In this document: piece by piece, positions 13,582-18,795 of the stretch
Numbering within the stretch: the stretch's first letter is position 1
Layout: every line of letters begins with the position of its first letter
Origin: Achromobacter sp. UMC46
Lineage (GTDB): Bacteria > Pseudomonadota > Gammaproteobacteria > Burkholderiales > Burkholderiaceae_B
Reading direction: 5' to 3'
Assembly (NCBI RefSeq): GCF_014170335.1
Contig: NZ_LZZS01000004.1
Coordinates: 682,001 to 746,000 of the forward strand
Length of the DNA: 64,000 bases
Made by a program: the position numbers and the translations under genes
Notes under the pieces: generated by a model
Databases searched by the model: none
Told to the model about the DNA's origin: nothing
What the model saw: only the letters and a program-made list of their open reading frames with translations

Positions 13582-13792
13582 GGCGGCGAAATGAGGGGCG
13601 GGAAAGCCGGATAGTAGCGGCCGAATGCCCGAATCAGCGTGGATTTTCGCGTATCCGGCGTTCAAAAAAACGTCAGGTATCTGACTTTGCGCTGAACATC
13701 AAACGAAAATTGTTTACACTCGCATCCACAAAATTGAAGTCGGAACGGCCCGCCGCGGGGGCGGATACCGTTCGAGTTACGGGAGAAAGTCG

Positions 13793-15091
13793 ATGCGCAA
13801 GTTGCTTTTGGGTGCGGTGCTGGCCGCCGCGGTATTCGGGGGAACGGCCCACGCCGCGGTTGAGCCCAAGGCCGTGGTCGCCACCTATTCGGATCTGGCG
13901 CTGGCGGGTTATGAAGATTCGCTGACCGCCGCCAAGACGCTGCGCACCGCCATCGACGCCTTGGTCGCCACGCCCAGCCCCGACACGCTGAAAGCCGCCC
14001 GCGAAGCCTGGCTGGCCGCCCGCGTGCCGTATCAGCAGACCGAGGCCTACCGCTTTGGCAATCCCATCGTCGACGACTGGGAAGGCCGCGTGAACGCCTG
14101 GCCGCTGGACGAAGGCCTGATCGACTACGTGGACGCGTCCTACGGCACTGAAAACGACGAAAACGCCTATTACACCGTCAACGTCATCGCCAATTCCAAG
14201 ATCTCGGTGGGCGGCAAGACGGTGGACGTCAGCAAGATCACGCCGAAGCTGCTATCCGAAGTGCTGCACGAGGCCGACGGCAACGAAGCCAACGTGGCCA
14301 CCGGCTACCACGCCATCGAATTCCTGCTGTGGGGCCAGGACTTGAACGGCACCGGTCCCGCGCCGGCCGACCGCAAGGGCACGCCGCAAGAACGCCATTC
14401 GGGCAACCGTCCGCATACGGACTTCGATACCAAGCAATGCACCGGCGGCCACTGCGAACGCCGCATCGAATTCCTGAAGGCGGTGACTGACCTGCTGGTG
14501 ACGGACCTGGAAGAAATGGTGGGCAACTGGAAGAAGGATGGCGCCGCGCGCAAGGCCGTGGAAGAAGATCCCAAGGCAGGCCTGATCGCCATGCTGACCG
14601 GTCTGGGCAGCCTGTCGTACGGCGAACTGGCCGGCGAACGCATGAAGCTCGGCCTGATGCTGCACGATCCCGAAGAAGAGCACGATTGCTTCTCGGACAA
14701 CACGCACAACGCGCATTATTACGACCAGCTGGGCATCCGCAACGTCTACCTGGGCGCCTACACCCGCATCGACGGCAAGCAGGTCAAGGGCGCGAGCCTG
14801 TCTGAACTGGTCAAGGCCAGGGATCCGAAGCTGGATGCCGAAGTGCGCGCCAAGCTGGATGCCACCGTGGCGGCCATGCAGGCAATGAAGACGCGCGCCG
14901 AAACGGTCGAAACCTATGACCAGATGATTGCCGACGGCAACAAGGAAGGCAATGCGATGGTGCAGGCCGCCATCGACCGCCTGGTCGACCAGACCCGCAG
15001 CCTGGAACGCGTGATCGCGTTGCTGGAATTGGGCAAGGTCGCCATCGAAGGTTCCGACAGCCTGGATAAACCCGACGCCGTGTTCAAGTGA
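13793..15091 (+). CDS. Imelysin-family protein (iron-regulated peptidase-like, first copy)
   Basis: This 432-residue exported protein has a signal peptide (MRKLLLGAVLAAAVFGGTAHA) and two imelysin helical repeats. The family GxHxxE motif is intact as GYHAIE (His173, Glu176), and the nearby RFGNP and DEGLIDY segments fit imelysin/ICMP proteins. Members are periplasmic or outer-membrane proteins linked to iron uptake; peptidase activity is not certain. A ribosome binding site (GGGAGAAAG) precedes the ATG. Its stop overlaps the GTG of the di-haem gene by GTGA, so the two are translationally coupled. No clear Fur box was seen upstream. Confidence 0.9.
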   Translation: MRKLLLGAVLAAAVFGGTAHAAVEPKAVVATYSDLALAGYEDSLTAAKTLRTAIDALVATPSPDTLKAAREAWLAARVPYQQTEAYRFGNPIVDDWEGRVNAWPLDEGLIDYVDASYGTENDENAYYTVNVIANSKISVGGKTVDVSKITPKLLSEVLHEADGNEANVATGYHAIEFLLWGQDLNGTGPAPADRKGTPQERHSGNRPHTDFDTKQCTGGHCERRIEFLKAVTDLLVTDLEEMVGNWKKDGAARKAVEEDPKAGLIAMLTGLGSLSYGELAGERMKLGLMLHDPEEEHDCFSDNTHNAHYYDQLGIRNVYLGAYTRIDGKQVKGASLSELVKARDPKLDAEVRAKLDATVAAMQAMKTRAETVETYDQMIADGNKEGNAMVQAAIDRLVDQTRSLERVIALLELGKVAIEGSDSLDKPDAVFK

Positions 15092-16605
15092 AACTCGTAT
15101 TAGCCGCCGTATTGGCGGCGTCGGCACACGCCGGCGCCGCCGTCGCATCTGAAGTGCCCGCCGGGCGTGACGACTTGACGCCCGAAGACCAGAAGCGCGT
15201 CACCGCCATTACCGCGCCCACGCGCGATTTCTCGAAGGTGGAAACCTTCGAGACCATGCAGGCCGGGGCGGGCACGACCAACAAGCTCGTCAACGCCGAC
15301 ATCTTTTCGCAGCCGTCGGCCAACATGAGCTTCGAGGGACGTCAGGAATTCCAGGTCGGCAACGGCCTGTTCCGGAAAGACTGGGTATCAGCCCCGGCTT
15401 CCACGCAGGCGTCCGATGGGCTGGGGCCGCTGTTCAACGCGCGCTCGTGCCAGGCCTGTCACACCAAGGATGGACGCGGCACGGTGCCGGGTTTCGATCC
15501 TTTGGAGCGCACGGACGCGGTGGCGCTGCTGCTGCGCCTTGCCGTGCCGGAAGGCCCCGACCGCGGCCATCCCAAGCTTGCCGCCGGCGAGCTGGCCGCC
15601 TTGCCCGAACCCGTCTATGGCGTGCAACTGCAGAACTTCGCGGTGGCGGGCCTGCCCGCCGAAGGCCGCATGGAGATCGAGTACGAGCCCGTCGCGATCG
15701 CGCTCAACGGCGGCGAAACCGCCACGTTGATGAAGCCCACCTACCGCATCGACAACCTCGGCTATGGTCCGATGCGCGCCGACACGCAGATTTCGCCGCG
15801 CCTGGCGCCGCCCATGATCGGGCTGGGCCTGCTGGAATCCATCCACGAGGCCGACATCCTGGCCAACGTGGGGGCGGACAAGCGCGACGGCATCGTCGGC
15901 AAGGCCAACTGGGTCACCGATGCGCGCACCGGCGCGCGCGTGCTGGGCCGCTTCAACCTGAAGGCCGGGCAGCCGACGGTCGAGCAGCAAAGCGCCGCGG
16001 CGTTCTCGAACGACATGGGCCTGTCCACGCCGATGTTCCCCAAGCACTCGGGCGACTGCACGCCCTCGCAGAAGCAGTGCCTGGAGATGCCGCATGGCGC
16101 GCAGCCGCGCTTCGGCCCCGAGGAAGTCCCGGCCAAGCTGATGGACTTCGTCACGATCTATTCCACCAATCTTGCCGTGCCGCAGCGGCGCGACGCGGAT
16201 GAGGCGCGCGTGCTGGCGGGCAAGAAGCTCTTCTACGAAGCCAACTGCGTGGCCTGCCACGTGCCCAAGTACGTGACCAGCCGCAATGCCAGGCAGCCCG
16301 AGCACCGCTTCCAGCTGATCTGGCCCTACACCGACATGCTGGTGCACGACATGGGCGACGACCTGGCGGACGGCGTGTCCGACGGCGAAGCCAACGGCCG
16401 CGAATGGCGCACGCCGCCGCTGTGGGGAATCGGCTTGACCAAGACCGTGAATCCCAGCGCCACCTGGCTGCATGACGGGCGCGCCCGCACGCTGCTGGAA
16501 GCGGTGCTGTGGCACGGCGGCGCGGGCAAGCCCGCGCGTGACCGCGTCGTGGCGATGACGCCCGAAGAACGCGCTGATCTGATCCGTTTCCTGGAGTCGC
16601 TGTGA
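15088..16605 (+). CDS. Di-haem oxidoreductase family protein (DHOR, COG3488)
   Basis: This 505-residue exported cytochrome has a GTG start, signal peptide (cleavage near AHAGAAVA-S) and two c-type haem motifs, CQACH (121-125) and CVACH (387-391). It belongs to the putative thiol oxidoreductase or peroxidase family that accompanies imelysins. The role is presumably periplasmic electron transfer or oxidation of a substrate held by the imelysin proteins; no reaction is established. It overlaps the preceding gene by 4 bases and the next by one base (TGATG). Confidence 0.9.
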   Translation: MKLVLAAVLAASAHAGAAVASEVPAGRDDLTPEDQKRVTAITAPTRDFSKVETFETMQAGAGTTNKLVNADIFSQPSANMSFEGRQEFQVGNGLFRKDWVSAPASTQASDGLGPLFNARSCQACHTKDGRGTVPGFDPLERTDAVALLLRLAVPEGPDRGHPKLAAGELAALPEPVYGVQLQNFAVAGLPAEGRMEIEYEPVAIALNGGETATLMKPTYRIDNLGYGPMRADTQISPRLAPPMIGLGLLESIHEADILANVGADKRDGIVGKANWVTDARTGARVLGRFNLKAGQPTVEQQSAAAFSNDMGLSTPMFPKHSGDCTPSQKQCLEMPHGAQPRFGPEEVPAKLMDFVTIYSTNLAVPQRRDADEARVLAGKKLFYEANCVACHVPKYVTSRNARQPEHRFQLIWPYTDMLVHDMGDDLADGVSDGEANGREWRTPPLWGIGLTKTVNPSATWLHDGRARTLLEAVLWHGGAGKPARDRVVAMTPEERADLIRFLESL

Positions 16606-17693
16606 TGGCCCGATCCTTTTCGCCTGTGTTCAAGCATGCCGCAGCGGCCCTGTTGCTGGCGGTCGCGCCGCTGGCCGTGCAGGCCGAATTGCCTGCCGAC
16701 CTGGGCGAACGCCTGGCACGCGACTACGCCCGTCCGGCGGTCGGCAAGATGGTGCAAGCCGCCGCCGCAGTGAATGAGGCGTTGGGCGGGTGGTGCGCCA
16801 AGCCGGACGCAGCGGGCGCCGCGCGCGTCGGTGTCGCCTTCTCGAATCTGGCCCAGGCCTGGTCCGGCGTGGAGATCCTGCGCTTCGGCCCGCTGGTGCA
16901 GGCCAACCGATTTGAACGCCTGGCGTTCTGGCCCGACACGCGCGGCGTGATGCCCAAGCAGGTGCAGCAGTTGATCGCCGCCGGCGACCCGGCATTGCTG
17001 GCGCCGGGCGCGCTGGCCGGCCGCAGTGTGGCGGTGCAGGGGCTGCCTGCCCTGGAGTACGTGCTGTACGGCGAACCCGCGCTGCTCACGCAGGCGAGCG
17101 CGCCGACGTTCGCCTACGCGTGCGCGTATGCCCGGGCCGTGGCCGCCAACGTCTCGACGATTTCCGGCGATGTGGCGCAGGCCTGGAGCGCCCAGGGCGA
17201 ATTCGGCCGCCAGTTCGCCAAGCCGCAAGCCGGCAACGACTTGTACCGCGATCCGCAGGAAGTGGCGGCCGAGGCCATGAAGGCCTTGTCCACCGGTCTG
17301 CAGTTCGCGCGCGATGTCAAAATCCTGCCCGTGCTGGGCGGATCTGCCGAGGCGGCCCGTCCCAAGCGCGCCGCCTTCTGGCGCAGCGAGTTGTCCACGC
17401 GTTTGCTGGCGGCCAACCTGGACGGACTGAAGGCGTTCTACCTGGCCGGCGGCTATCCGCTGCCCAAGGGCGGCGACTGGATGGACGTGTCCGTGCGCGG
17501 CGAATTGCAGAATGCCGCGCAGACCTTGCGGGCGGTGCCCACGCCGCTGGACGCCGCGCTGAAGCAGGAAGACGGCCGCCGCCAGTTGCTGCTGGCGGCC
17601 CTGACGATACAGAACGCCAAGGCCATCGTCGATCAAGACCTGGCGCCGGCGCTGGGCGTCACCATCGGATTCAATGCGCTCGATGGTGATTGA
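16605..17693 (+). CDS. Imelysin-family protein (second copy)
   Basis: This 362-residue exported protein has a signal peptide ending near AVQA-E and an imelysin-type helical domain. At the position of the GxHxxE motif it reads GLPALEYVLYG, so the glutamate is kept but the histidine is proline, unlike the first copy. This suggests a structural or binding role, not metal-dependent catalysis. The start is either the ATG at 16605, overlapping the DHOR stop by one base, or the GTG at 16602. It is the third gene of the envelope operon. Confidence 0.85.
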   Translation: MARSFSPVFKHAAAALLLAVAPLAVQAELPADLGERLARDYARPAVGKMVQAAAAVNEALGGWCAKPDAAGAARVGVAFSNLAQAWSGVEILRFGPLVQANRFERLAFWPDTRGVMPKQVQQLIAAGDPALLAPGALAGRSVAVQGLPALEYVLYGEPALLTQASAPTFAYACAYARAVAANVSTISGDVAQAWSAQGEFGRQFAKPQAGNDLYRDPQEVAAEAMKALSTGLQFARDVKILPVLGGSAEAARPKRAAFWRSELSTRLLAANLDGLKAFYLAGGYPLPKGGDWMDVSVRGELQNAAQTLRAVPTPLDAALKQEDGRRQLLLAALTIQNAKAIVDQDLAPALGVTIGFNALDGD

Positions 17694-18795
17694 TCGCCGC
17701 CGTTTCCTGTTGCTGGCGGCGGCGCTGGGGCTGTCGCCCGGCGCGGCGCTGGCCGTGCTTCCCGCGAACGGCGGGCCGTTGTACCTGAGCGCGCGCAAGC
17801 GCGGCGGGCGCGACGAAGCGGTGTTGCTGGACGAGGCCGGGGCCGACCGTCTGGTCGTGCCGATGCCCGCGCGCGGGCACAGCTTCGCCATCGATGCTTC
17901 AGGGCAGCGCGCGGTGGTGTTCGGCAGGCAGCCTGGATTCTTCGCCGTGGCGTTTTCGCTGCGCGGCGGCGGCGAGCAGCAGGCGTTGCCGGTGCCTGAC
18001 GAACGCCATTTTTTCGGCCATGGCGCCTTCGTGGACGGGGGGCGGCTGCTTGCCGCCACCGAGAACGATTTCGAAGGCGGCCGGGGCGTGCTGGGCATTT
18101 ACGATGCGTCGCCCGGGGGCGCCTGGCGCCGGGTCGGCGAATTCGATTCCGGCGGCATCGGCCCGCATGAAGTGGTGCTGATGCCGGACGGCAAAACGCT
18201 GTGCGTGGCCAACGGCGGCATCCTGACGCACCCGGACTACGGCAAGCTGGAGCTGAACCTGGACACGATGCGGCCGTCGCTGGCCTACATCGACGCGGCC
18301 AGCGGCCAACTGCTTGAGAAAGTGGAACTGGCGCCCGAACTGCATCGCCTGTCGATCCGGCATCTGGCGCTGGCGGCTGACGGTTGCGTCTGGTTCGGTT
18401 GCCAATACATGGGCCCGGCGGCCGACCGCCCGGCCCTGGTGGGACGGCATCGCCGCGGCGCGAAGCTGGAACTCTTCGACGGGCCGGTCGAGACCTTGCG
18501 CAACATGCGCAACTACGTGGGCTCGGTGACGGTCGACGCCTCGGGCGGCATCGTCGCCACCTCCAGTCCGGTGGGGGGGCAGGTGATCTATTGGGACACC
18601 GCCAGCGGCCGCTGCCTGGGCACGACGCTGCTGGCCGACGGCTGCGGCGTAGCCCCCGCGCGCGATGCCGGCTTCCTGGTCAGCAGCGGCCTGGGCGCGA
18701 TGCTGCGCACGGATGCCGCGGGCAGGGAATCGTCCTTGCTGCCGCCGTCGCGCGAGGTGTCCTGGGACAATCATTTCCGCGTCGTGCCGGCCTGA
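17674..18795 (+). CDS. DUF1513 beta-propeller-like periplasmic protein
   Basis: This 373-residue protein has a Tat-type leader (IDRRRFLLLAAALG) and a body of repeated strand motifs (GHSFAIDASGQRAVVFGR, GIGPHEVVLMPDGKTLCVANGG) typical of DUF1513 and seven-bladed propellers. It is the regular fourth member of imelysin/DHOR operons; function is unknown. It overlaps the second imelysin gene by 20 bases. An alternative ATG at 17683 would keep the whole Tat motif. Both starts have weak ribosome binding sites. Confidence 0.85.
   Translation: MRSMVIDRRRFLLLAAALGLSPGAALAVLPANGGPLYLSARKRGGRDEAVLLDEAGADRLVVPMPARGHSFAIDASGQRAVVFGRQPGFFAVAFSLRGGGEQQALPVPDERHFFGHGAFVDGGRLLAATENDFEGGRGVLGIYDASPGGAWRRVGEFDSGGIGPHEVVLMPDGKTLCVANGGILTHPDYGKLELNLDTMRPSLAYIDAASGQLLEKVELAPELHRLSIRHLALAADGCVWFGCQYMGPAADRPALVGRHRRGAKLELFDGPVETLRNMRNYVGSVTVDASGGIVATSSPVGGQVIYWDTASGRCLGTTLLADGCGVAPARDAGFLVSSGLGAMLRTDAAGRESSLLPPSREVSWDNHFRVVPA

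Follow-up and report, generated by a model that had tools for sequence, protein, structure and literature searches.

A conserved imelysin, di-haem oxidoreductase, IPPA and DUF1513 operon in Achromobacter sp. UMC46, with five invariant histidines in its predicted propeller protein

The closest described counterpart of the locus considered here, a four-gene operon in a 64,000-nucleotide stretch of Achromobacter sp. UMC46 (contig NZ_LZZS01000004.1, positions 682,001 to 746,000; hereafter, the window), is the icmP operon of Pseudomonas aeruginosa, PA4370-PA4373. In the excerpts of Xu et al. 2011 that are cited throughout (PMC3143127), this is a Fur-regulated operon whose products include a DUF1111 di-haem protein and a pair of proteins resembling imelysins. 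Imelysins are divided there into four families, and the GxHxxE histidine has been lost from one of these, the IPPA/PA4372 family. In Vibrio cholerae, VC1264-VC1267 comprise irpA, a “thiol oxidoreductase” with two haems, and then a gene whose product resembles irpA and one annotated as hypothetical; VC1264, VC1265 and VC1266-7 are all upregulated when the iron-uptake regulator IurV is lost (PMC7600106, excerpt). VC1264 and VC1266 are also named as iron-regulon genes (PMC5816637, excerpt), and VC1264 and VC1265 are among the transcripts that V. cholerae and Aliivibrio salmonicida have in common when their low-iron expression data are compared (PMC4324432, excerpt). The window operon combines a GxHxxE, ICMP-type imelysin (ImA), a DUF1111/DHOR di-haem c-type oxidoreductase (DHOR) and a GxxxxE, IPPA-type imelysin (ImB), the same combination as in PA4370-PA4373, and its fourth gene, like that of its relatives, encodes a DUF1513 protein. 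We take DUF1111 and PF06537 to be one family, and PA4373 and VC1267 to be DUF1513 proteins. DUF1513 is not treated in the cited excerpts of Xu et al. (PMC3143127). The novelty implied by a previous, sequence-only reading of this stretch does not hold, given that the operon, the histidine loss and the link to iron are already present in those excerpts.

Open reading frames and Pfam matches delineate four overlapping genes on the same strand (13793-18795), with the following features:

13793-15091, plus strand: ImA, canonical imelysin of the ICMP/IcmP type, 432 amino acids, PF09375 at 313 bits
14303-14320, plus strand: GxHxxE motif of ImA (GYHAIE), GxHA(I/V)E in 40/40 and 35/35 aligned rows
15088-16605, plus strand: DHOR, di-haem c-type oxidoreductase, 505 amino acids, PF06537 at 309 bits, two CxxCH motifs
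15448-15462, plus strand: haem motif 1 of DHOR, CQACH, Cys and His columns in 35/35 rows
16246-16260, plus strand: haem motif 2 of DHOR, CVACH, Cys and His columns in 35/35 rows
16605-17693 (or from a GTG start at 16602), plus strand: ImB, imelysin-like protein of the IPPA/PA4372 type, 362 or 363 amino acids, PF09375 at 139.7 bits
17040-17057, plus strand: GxPxxE motif of ImB (GLPALE) replacing GxHxxE, His absent in 39/39 and 33/33 rows
17683-18795 (or from an ATG at 17674), plus strand: DUF1513 protein, twin-arginine type, predicted beta-propeller, 370 or 373 amino acids, PF07433 at 378 bits
17878-18774, plus strand: span of the five invariant His codons of DUF1513, 35/35 operon rows and 6/6 lone paralogues

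The overlaps of 4, 1 and 20 bases given by the sequence-only reading are right under one choice of start codons: ImA and DHOR overlap by 4 bases, DHOR and ImB by 1 (4 if ImB starts at the GTG), and ImB and DUF1513 by 20 (11 if DUF1513 starts at Met 17683, which immediately precedes the twin-arginine motif, the protein then beginning MVIDRRRFLLLAAA). The GYHAIE and GLPALE motifs were both located as described, and the view that the four exported-looking proteins are encoded as one unit is supported. The N-termini resemble signal sequences when judged by eye.

All four genes are present in this order in 26 of the 28 named relatives (26 Achromobacter records, one Pollutimonas and one Pusillimonas), the other two (L057 and L058) starting inside the DUF1513 gene; thus, the arrangement is not due to chance. 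The closest named relatives, all Achromobacter records, have DUF1513 proteins up to 95% identical to that of the window. Within the order of the window genome, which we take to be Burkholderiales, DUF1513 was found in 16 of 120 genomes, with 18 matches, 12 of which adjoin two imelysins; outside the window genome, all 11 two-imelysin loci contain the four genes in order. The six lone DUF1513 proteins in this sample score 100-187 bits, compared to 236-379 bits for the operon copies uncut by a contig end. In a sample of the phylum (299 genomes, including that of the window), 56 DUF1513 matches exceeded the threshold of 70 bits, and in 51 of these cases DHOR and two or more imelysins are encoded within 8.5 kb. 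Four others occur with DHOR and one imelysin, with further imelysins elsewhere in the genome, and one is alone (73.5 bits). In genomes lacking a DUF1513 match of more than 70 bits, DHOR was found in 13 places (drawn from the 69 of 87 rows kept), of which 6 adjoin an imelysin and 7 do not. Beyond the operon, with its two M75 (imelysin) genes, one DHOR and one DUF1513, no further gene of these families was found in the window genome. Pairwise identities of the four proteins are correlated (r 0.61-0.86 over 33 rows, the highest value being that for ImB and DUF1513; for each of the six protein pairs, 0/999 permutations reached the observed value), with median identities of 0.46 for ImA, 0.47 for DHOR, 0.23 for ImB and 0.32 for DUF1513, a pattern that fits inheritance of the four genes as a unit. 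In genomes G303, G346, G348 and G395, DHOR, one imelysin and DUF1513 lie together, and a higher-scoring ICMP-like imelysin is encoded elsewhere.

The solved structure closest to ImA is P. aeruginosa ICMP (7xrx, E 5.3e-117) and, with its M75 domain and GxHxxE motif, ImA fits the ICMP imelysin family. No N-terminal Cys was recognised in ImA by eye, whereas P. aeruginosa ICMP has a lipoprotein signal peptide (PMC3143127, excerpt). The haem protein of the operon matches the DHOR and cytochrome c families alone in Pfam, and its HDMG and HDGRA motifs are invariant (35/35 rows). We assume, on motif resemblance, that these place it near the bacterial cytochrome c peroxidase (CcP)/MauG group; single-sequence and profile searches of DHOR against solved structures returned nothing at E 0.001 (best E 0.084). 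In one genome, two tandem DHOR frames lie between ImA and ImB (L084:2229-5435).

The second imelysin had been called degenerate, and this description does not survive comparison. The only solved relative found for ImB is IPPA (Psyc_1802, 3pf0, E 4e-14), and because the best solved relatives of ImA and ImB are ICMP and IPPA, respectively, the “intact plus degenerate” imelysins are a known pair of families. Like the IPPA/PA4372 family in general, ImB is an M75 domain protein in which the GxHxxE histidine is replaced. In the set of 39 ImB sequences, the Glu of this motif is always kept, Cys64, Cys173, Trp86 and Gly95-Pro96 are present in 39/39, and a C-terminal DGD in at least 95%. In the wider set (n=33), the position of the His is occupied by Pro in 19 sequences, Thr in 6, Gly in 4, Tyr in 2, and Ser or Gln in the rest, and Cys64 and Cys173 are each found in 30/33. 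We considered whether ImB might be a copy of ImA, recently duplicated or decayed, and rejected this because ImB belongs to a distinct family with its own invariants; ImB is thus better described as a conserved partner family than as a degenerate imelysin. The IPPA crystal structure has a proline at the lost-histidine position, as in ImB (PMC3143127, excerpt), and the two proteins also share the C-terminal GFN..DGD and aligned positions for both disulphide cysteines. The IPPA disulphide is called not conserved in the cited excerpts of Xu et al. (PMC3143127), in contrast to the near-invariance of the two cysteines in our sets. In a comparison of M75 metal sites, IPPA is the exception that lacks them (PMC9174327, excerpt), which would fit ImB acting in docking and not as a metal carrier.

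We take COG3490 to be the COG number of DUF1513. In an expression table, COG3490 is listed as an “uncharacterized protein conserved in bacteria” (PMC4557100, excerpt), and no papers naming DUF1513 were found in the open-access literature searched. On imelysins together with a propeller, a di-haem protein and iron, Xu et al. was the only pertinent paper found there, two others being, to judge by title and abstract, about different topics. The AlphaFold model of the window protein is a beta-propeller (predicted local distance difference test score, pLDDT, 84.3; predicted template modelling score, pTM, 0.84), which appears to have seven blades by our own reading of the strands. In Foldseek and VIA-align comparisons, this model matches many propellers, including 1ri6 (Z 29.6, root-mean-square deviation 2.9 over 299), the hydrazine synthase beta subunit (Z 28.4, 3.0 over 288) and nitrous oxide reductase (1fwx; Z 27.0, 3.5 over 306 residues), so that no propeller family could be chosen by rank. 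Sequence searches against solved structures yielded weak matches of the WD-repeat type alone (best E 0.0016).

The most conspicuous feature of DUF1513 is its set of invariant histidines. Numbered from Met 17683, these are H66 (codon at 17878), H113 (18019), H162 (18166), H227 (18361) and H364 (18772), all five conserved in the 35 operon sequences chosen for the alignment. The window protein has nine His residues, and the other four are kept in 27, 19, 10 and 12 of the 35 sequences; the twin arginines are kept in 35/35 and 34/35. In the secondary structure assigned to the model by DSSP, the five invariant residues precede the ends of the innermost strands by 5, 4, 4, 3 and 4 residues, respectively, and, by our blade assignment, they fall in blades 1, 2, 3, 4 and 7. 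The equivalent place is Ser281 in blade 5 (31/35) and mostly Cys, Ala or Ser in blade 6 (31/35). Judged by this strand register, five equivalent innermost-strand histidines form the pattern expected of a metal or haem site that would line the hub of the propeller. Nitrous oxide reductase, the propeller of which has hub histidines, resembles DUF1513 in fold, tied with many other propellers; however, DUF1513 has five, not seven, candidate His and no cupredoxin domain, and no sequence relation between the two was shown. We tentatively propose, as a possibility that we rate well short of even, that DUF1513 might be an unrecognised class of Tat-exported (twin-arginine translocation) propeller metalloprotein, in which an open ring of five hub His would bind iron, copper or haem, and which would partner DHOR and the IPPA imelysin in a periplasmic iron-oxidising or iron-reducing complex. 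In the lone DUF1513 paralogues of the order sample, the Arg82 column differs in 6/6, and Arg64 and Arg226 are also lost in four; these four (L015, L016, L017 and L020), which have the five His without arginines 64, 82 and 226, are perhaps a separate subfamily.

Some of the genes near DUF1513 and elsewhere in the window genome are relevant to iron. At L014:235-2430, in a genome that lacks imelysin (M75) matches, a lone DUF1513 gene comes immediately after one that is ferric-binding-protein-like; the best solved relatives of this neighbour are ferric-binding proteins (2pt1, E 6.6e-105). At L023:4535-5539, a ferric-binding-protein-like gene (7li0, E 2.7e-129) lies divergently beside the four-gene operon. 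Neither neighbour is named ferric-binding by NCBIfam (both score below all cut-offs), the label resting on the solved relatives, and the two cases are anecdotes rather than a tally. The window genome has a single FTR1 match, in a cluster on contig C35 that, by eye, looks like FtrABCD, whereas the operon is on contig C4.

On balance, and with somewhat better than even confidence, we read the window operon as the version found in Achromobacter of a conserved imelysin-DHOR-IPPA-DUF1513 operon (the PA4370-PA4373 and VC1264-VC1267 type), a module that would bind iron and carry out redox reactions in the periplasm, with no permease of its own. The locus is a fixed-order unit of four genes for a GxHxxE imelysin, a protein with two haem-c motifs, an IPPA-type imelysin and a Tat-type predicted propeller; beyond four genes that are kept together and look exported, we infer each step. 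ImA would hold iron between its two helical bundles, and DHOR would exchange electrons with this iron, in either direction and possibly with peroxide. ImB, lacking the metal-site His, might serve as the docking partner of the propeller, and DUF1513, carrying a metal or haem on its five-His hub, might join the redox step or pass iron on; ImB and DUF1513 would together make a pair that docks or that completes the redox chain. Given that the operon has no permease, the iron would then leave the module for a separate importer. Because both neighbours found are of the ferric type, oxidation of Fe(II) for ferric-binding proteins is weakly preferred over reduction of Fe(III). EfeUOB also combines an M75 domain with a haem protein in iron uptake, and EfeM, an M75 protein, binds metals in a published assay, as far as the excerpted report goes. 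However, EfeB is a DyP peroxidase and DHOR a c-type di-haem protein, and the operon lacks both an EfeU/FTR1-type permease and a cupredoxin match, so that EfeUOB is at most an analogue; Xu et al., in the excerpts, refer to the DUF1111 di-haem protein as an “EfeB homolog” (PMC3143127).

Several observations weigh against this iron-handling module. Fe(III), haem or zinc did not stabilise PIBO or IPPA (PMC3143127, excerpt). The six lone DUF1513 proteins keep the five His outside the operon, so that the hub site, should it exist, could be independent of the imelysins. The correlated divergence of the four proteins may merely mirror shared vertical descent, the structure model of DHOR, built from just 27 close sequences, failed (pLDDT 29.9), and among the 63 frames flanking the 11 other operons of the order, no recurring transporter was seen by eye (seven matching pairs, none in more than three loci, these being related). 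PA4370-PA4373 are Fur-regulated (PMC3143127, excerpt), whereas no Fur box was recognised upstream of the window operon. When the 250 bases upstream of ImA were scored against 300 shuffles (with the ImA start set by a hydrophobicity rule, so that in some loci the stretch scored may be in the wrong place), the best site in the window had 10/19 matches and 217/300 shuffles were as good; in five other Achromobacter loci, 54-208/300 were as good, and just 2 of 20 diverse loci had a Fur-like box at no more than 3/300. Outside Achromobacter, five loci among L021-L033 (13 in all, two with an incomplete unit) have a box at this level, and Pollutimonas and Pusillimonas scored 4/300 and 10/300, respectively. 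The classical 19-mer Fur box had no match within 3 mismatches anywhere in the window genome, a scan that is uninformative because it is stricter than real boxes require. Thus, upstream sequences hint at iron control of the operon in some relatives but do not establish it in Achromobacter. The sequence-only reading had envisaged a periplasmic redox complex, perhaps for metal acquisition, and it is partly borne out, in that the proteins probably handle iron in the periplasm, with a redox element.

The same set of proteins could instead form a peroxide or redox-stress system, in which DHOR would act like a cytochrome c peroxidase, and the imelysins and the propeller would sequester iron against Fenton chemistry rather than for uptake. 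The retention by DHOR of both haem motifs, HDMG and HDGRA, which we take to be CcP/MauG-like, is compatible with this, and papers on the peroxide response of Leptospira mention imelysin, in the excerpts available. The published relatives respond to iron, however, and no peroxidase-specific residue was established in DHOR, and we regard this explanation as unlikely. DHOR and DUF1513 might also donate electrons to Fe(III), since c-type di-haem proteins can pass electrons in either direction, the resulting Fe(II) entering via importers of the FtrABCD or Feo type. The window genome does encode FTR1 in the FtrABCD-like cluster, but this cluster is on another contig, and the two iron-import neighbours resemble ferric-binding proteins, not ferrous permeases; ferric reduction, too, seems improbable to us. 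Finally, early work on P. aeruginosa ICMP, as outlined by Xu et al. (PMC3143127, excerpt), would make ImA an insulin-cleaving peptidase (MEROPS M75), and the operon a device for processing a periplasmic or host protein. The same source presents a structural argument against proteolysis, and a peptidase leaves the haem and propeller partners unexplained, so that we give this explanation very little credence.

The operon is flanked by a divergent LysR-type gene upstream and an MscS-type channel gene downstream. Roughly 65 bases in front of ImA (13660-13725) are strongly conserved across Achromobacter, so that the promoter in this genus seems to be constrained by something. Two features lie in this region:

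13671-13685, no strand assigned: palindrome GTCAG-N4-CTGAC, inside the conserved block, with a run of T after it on the minus strand, resembling a weak terminator
13692-13720, plus strand: candidate sigma-70-like promoter CTGAAC-N17-TACACT, conserved in Achromobacter by eye

The palindrome was rejected as a regulon operator (24 genome matches with up to 2 mismatches versus 21 for the reversed control); the two other one-mismatch copies fall, by eye, inside long reading frames. As a terminator, it was no better than chance, with 1 site found in the region and 4.6 expected from shuffles. The candidate promoter, the first hexamer of which matches the consensus at 3/6 positions, was not listed by a consensus promoter scan.

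Overall, this operon is widespread in the phylum, with iron-regulated relatives in print, yet we found a settled activity for none of its four proteins, in agreement with the earlier statement that the biochemistry of its members is not established. The operon itself being already known, the new lead is the five invariant His of DUF1513. Of the 56 DUF1513 cases above 70 bits, 55 adjoin DHOR and one or more imelysins, and the five-His register of DUF1513 is a candidate for the module's missing metal site.

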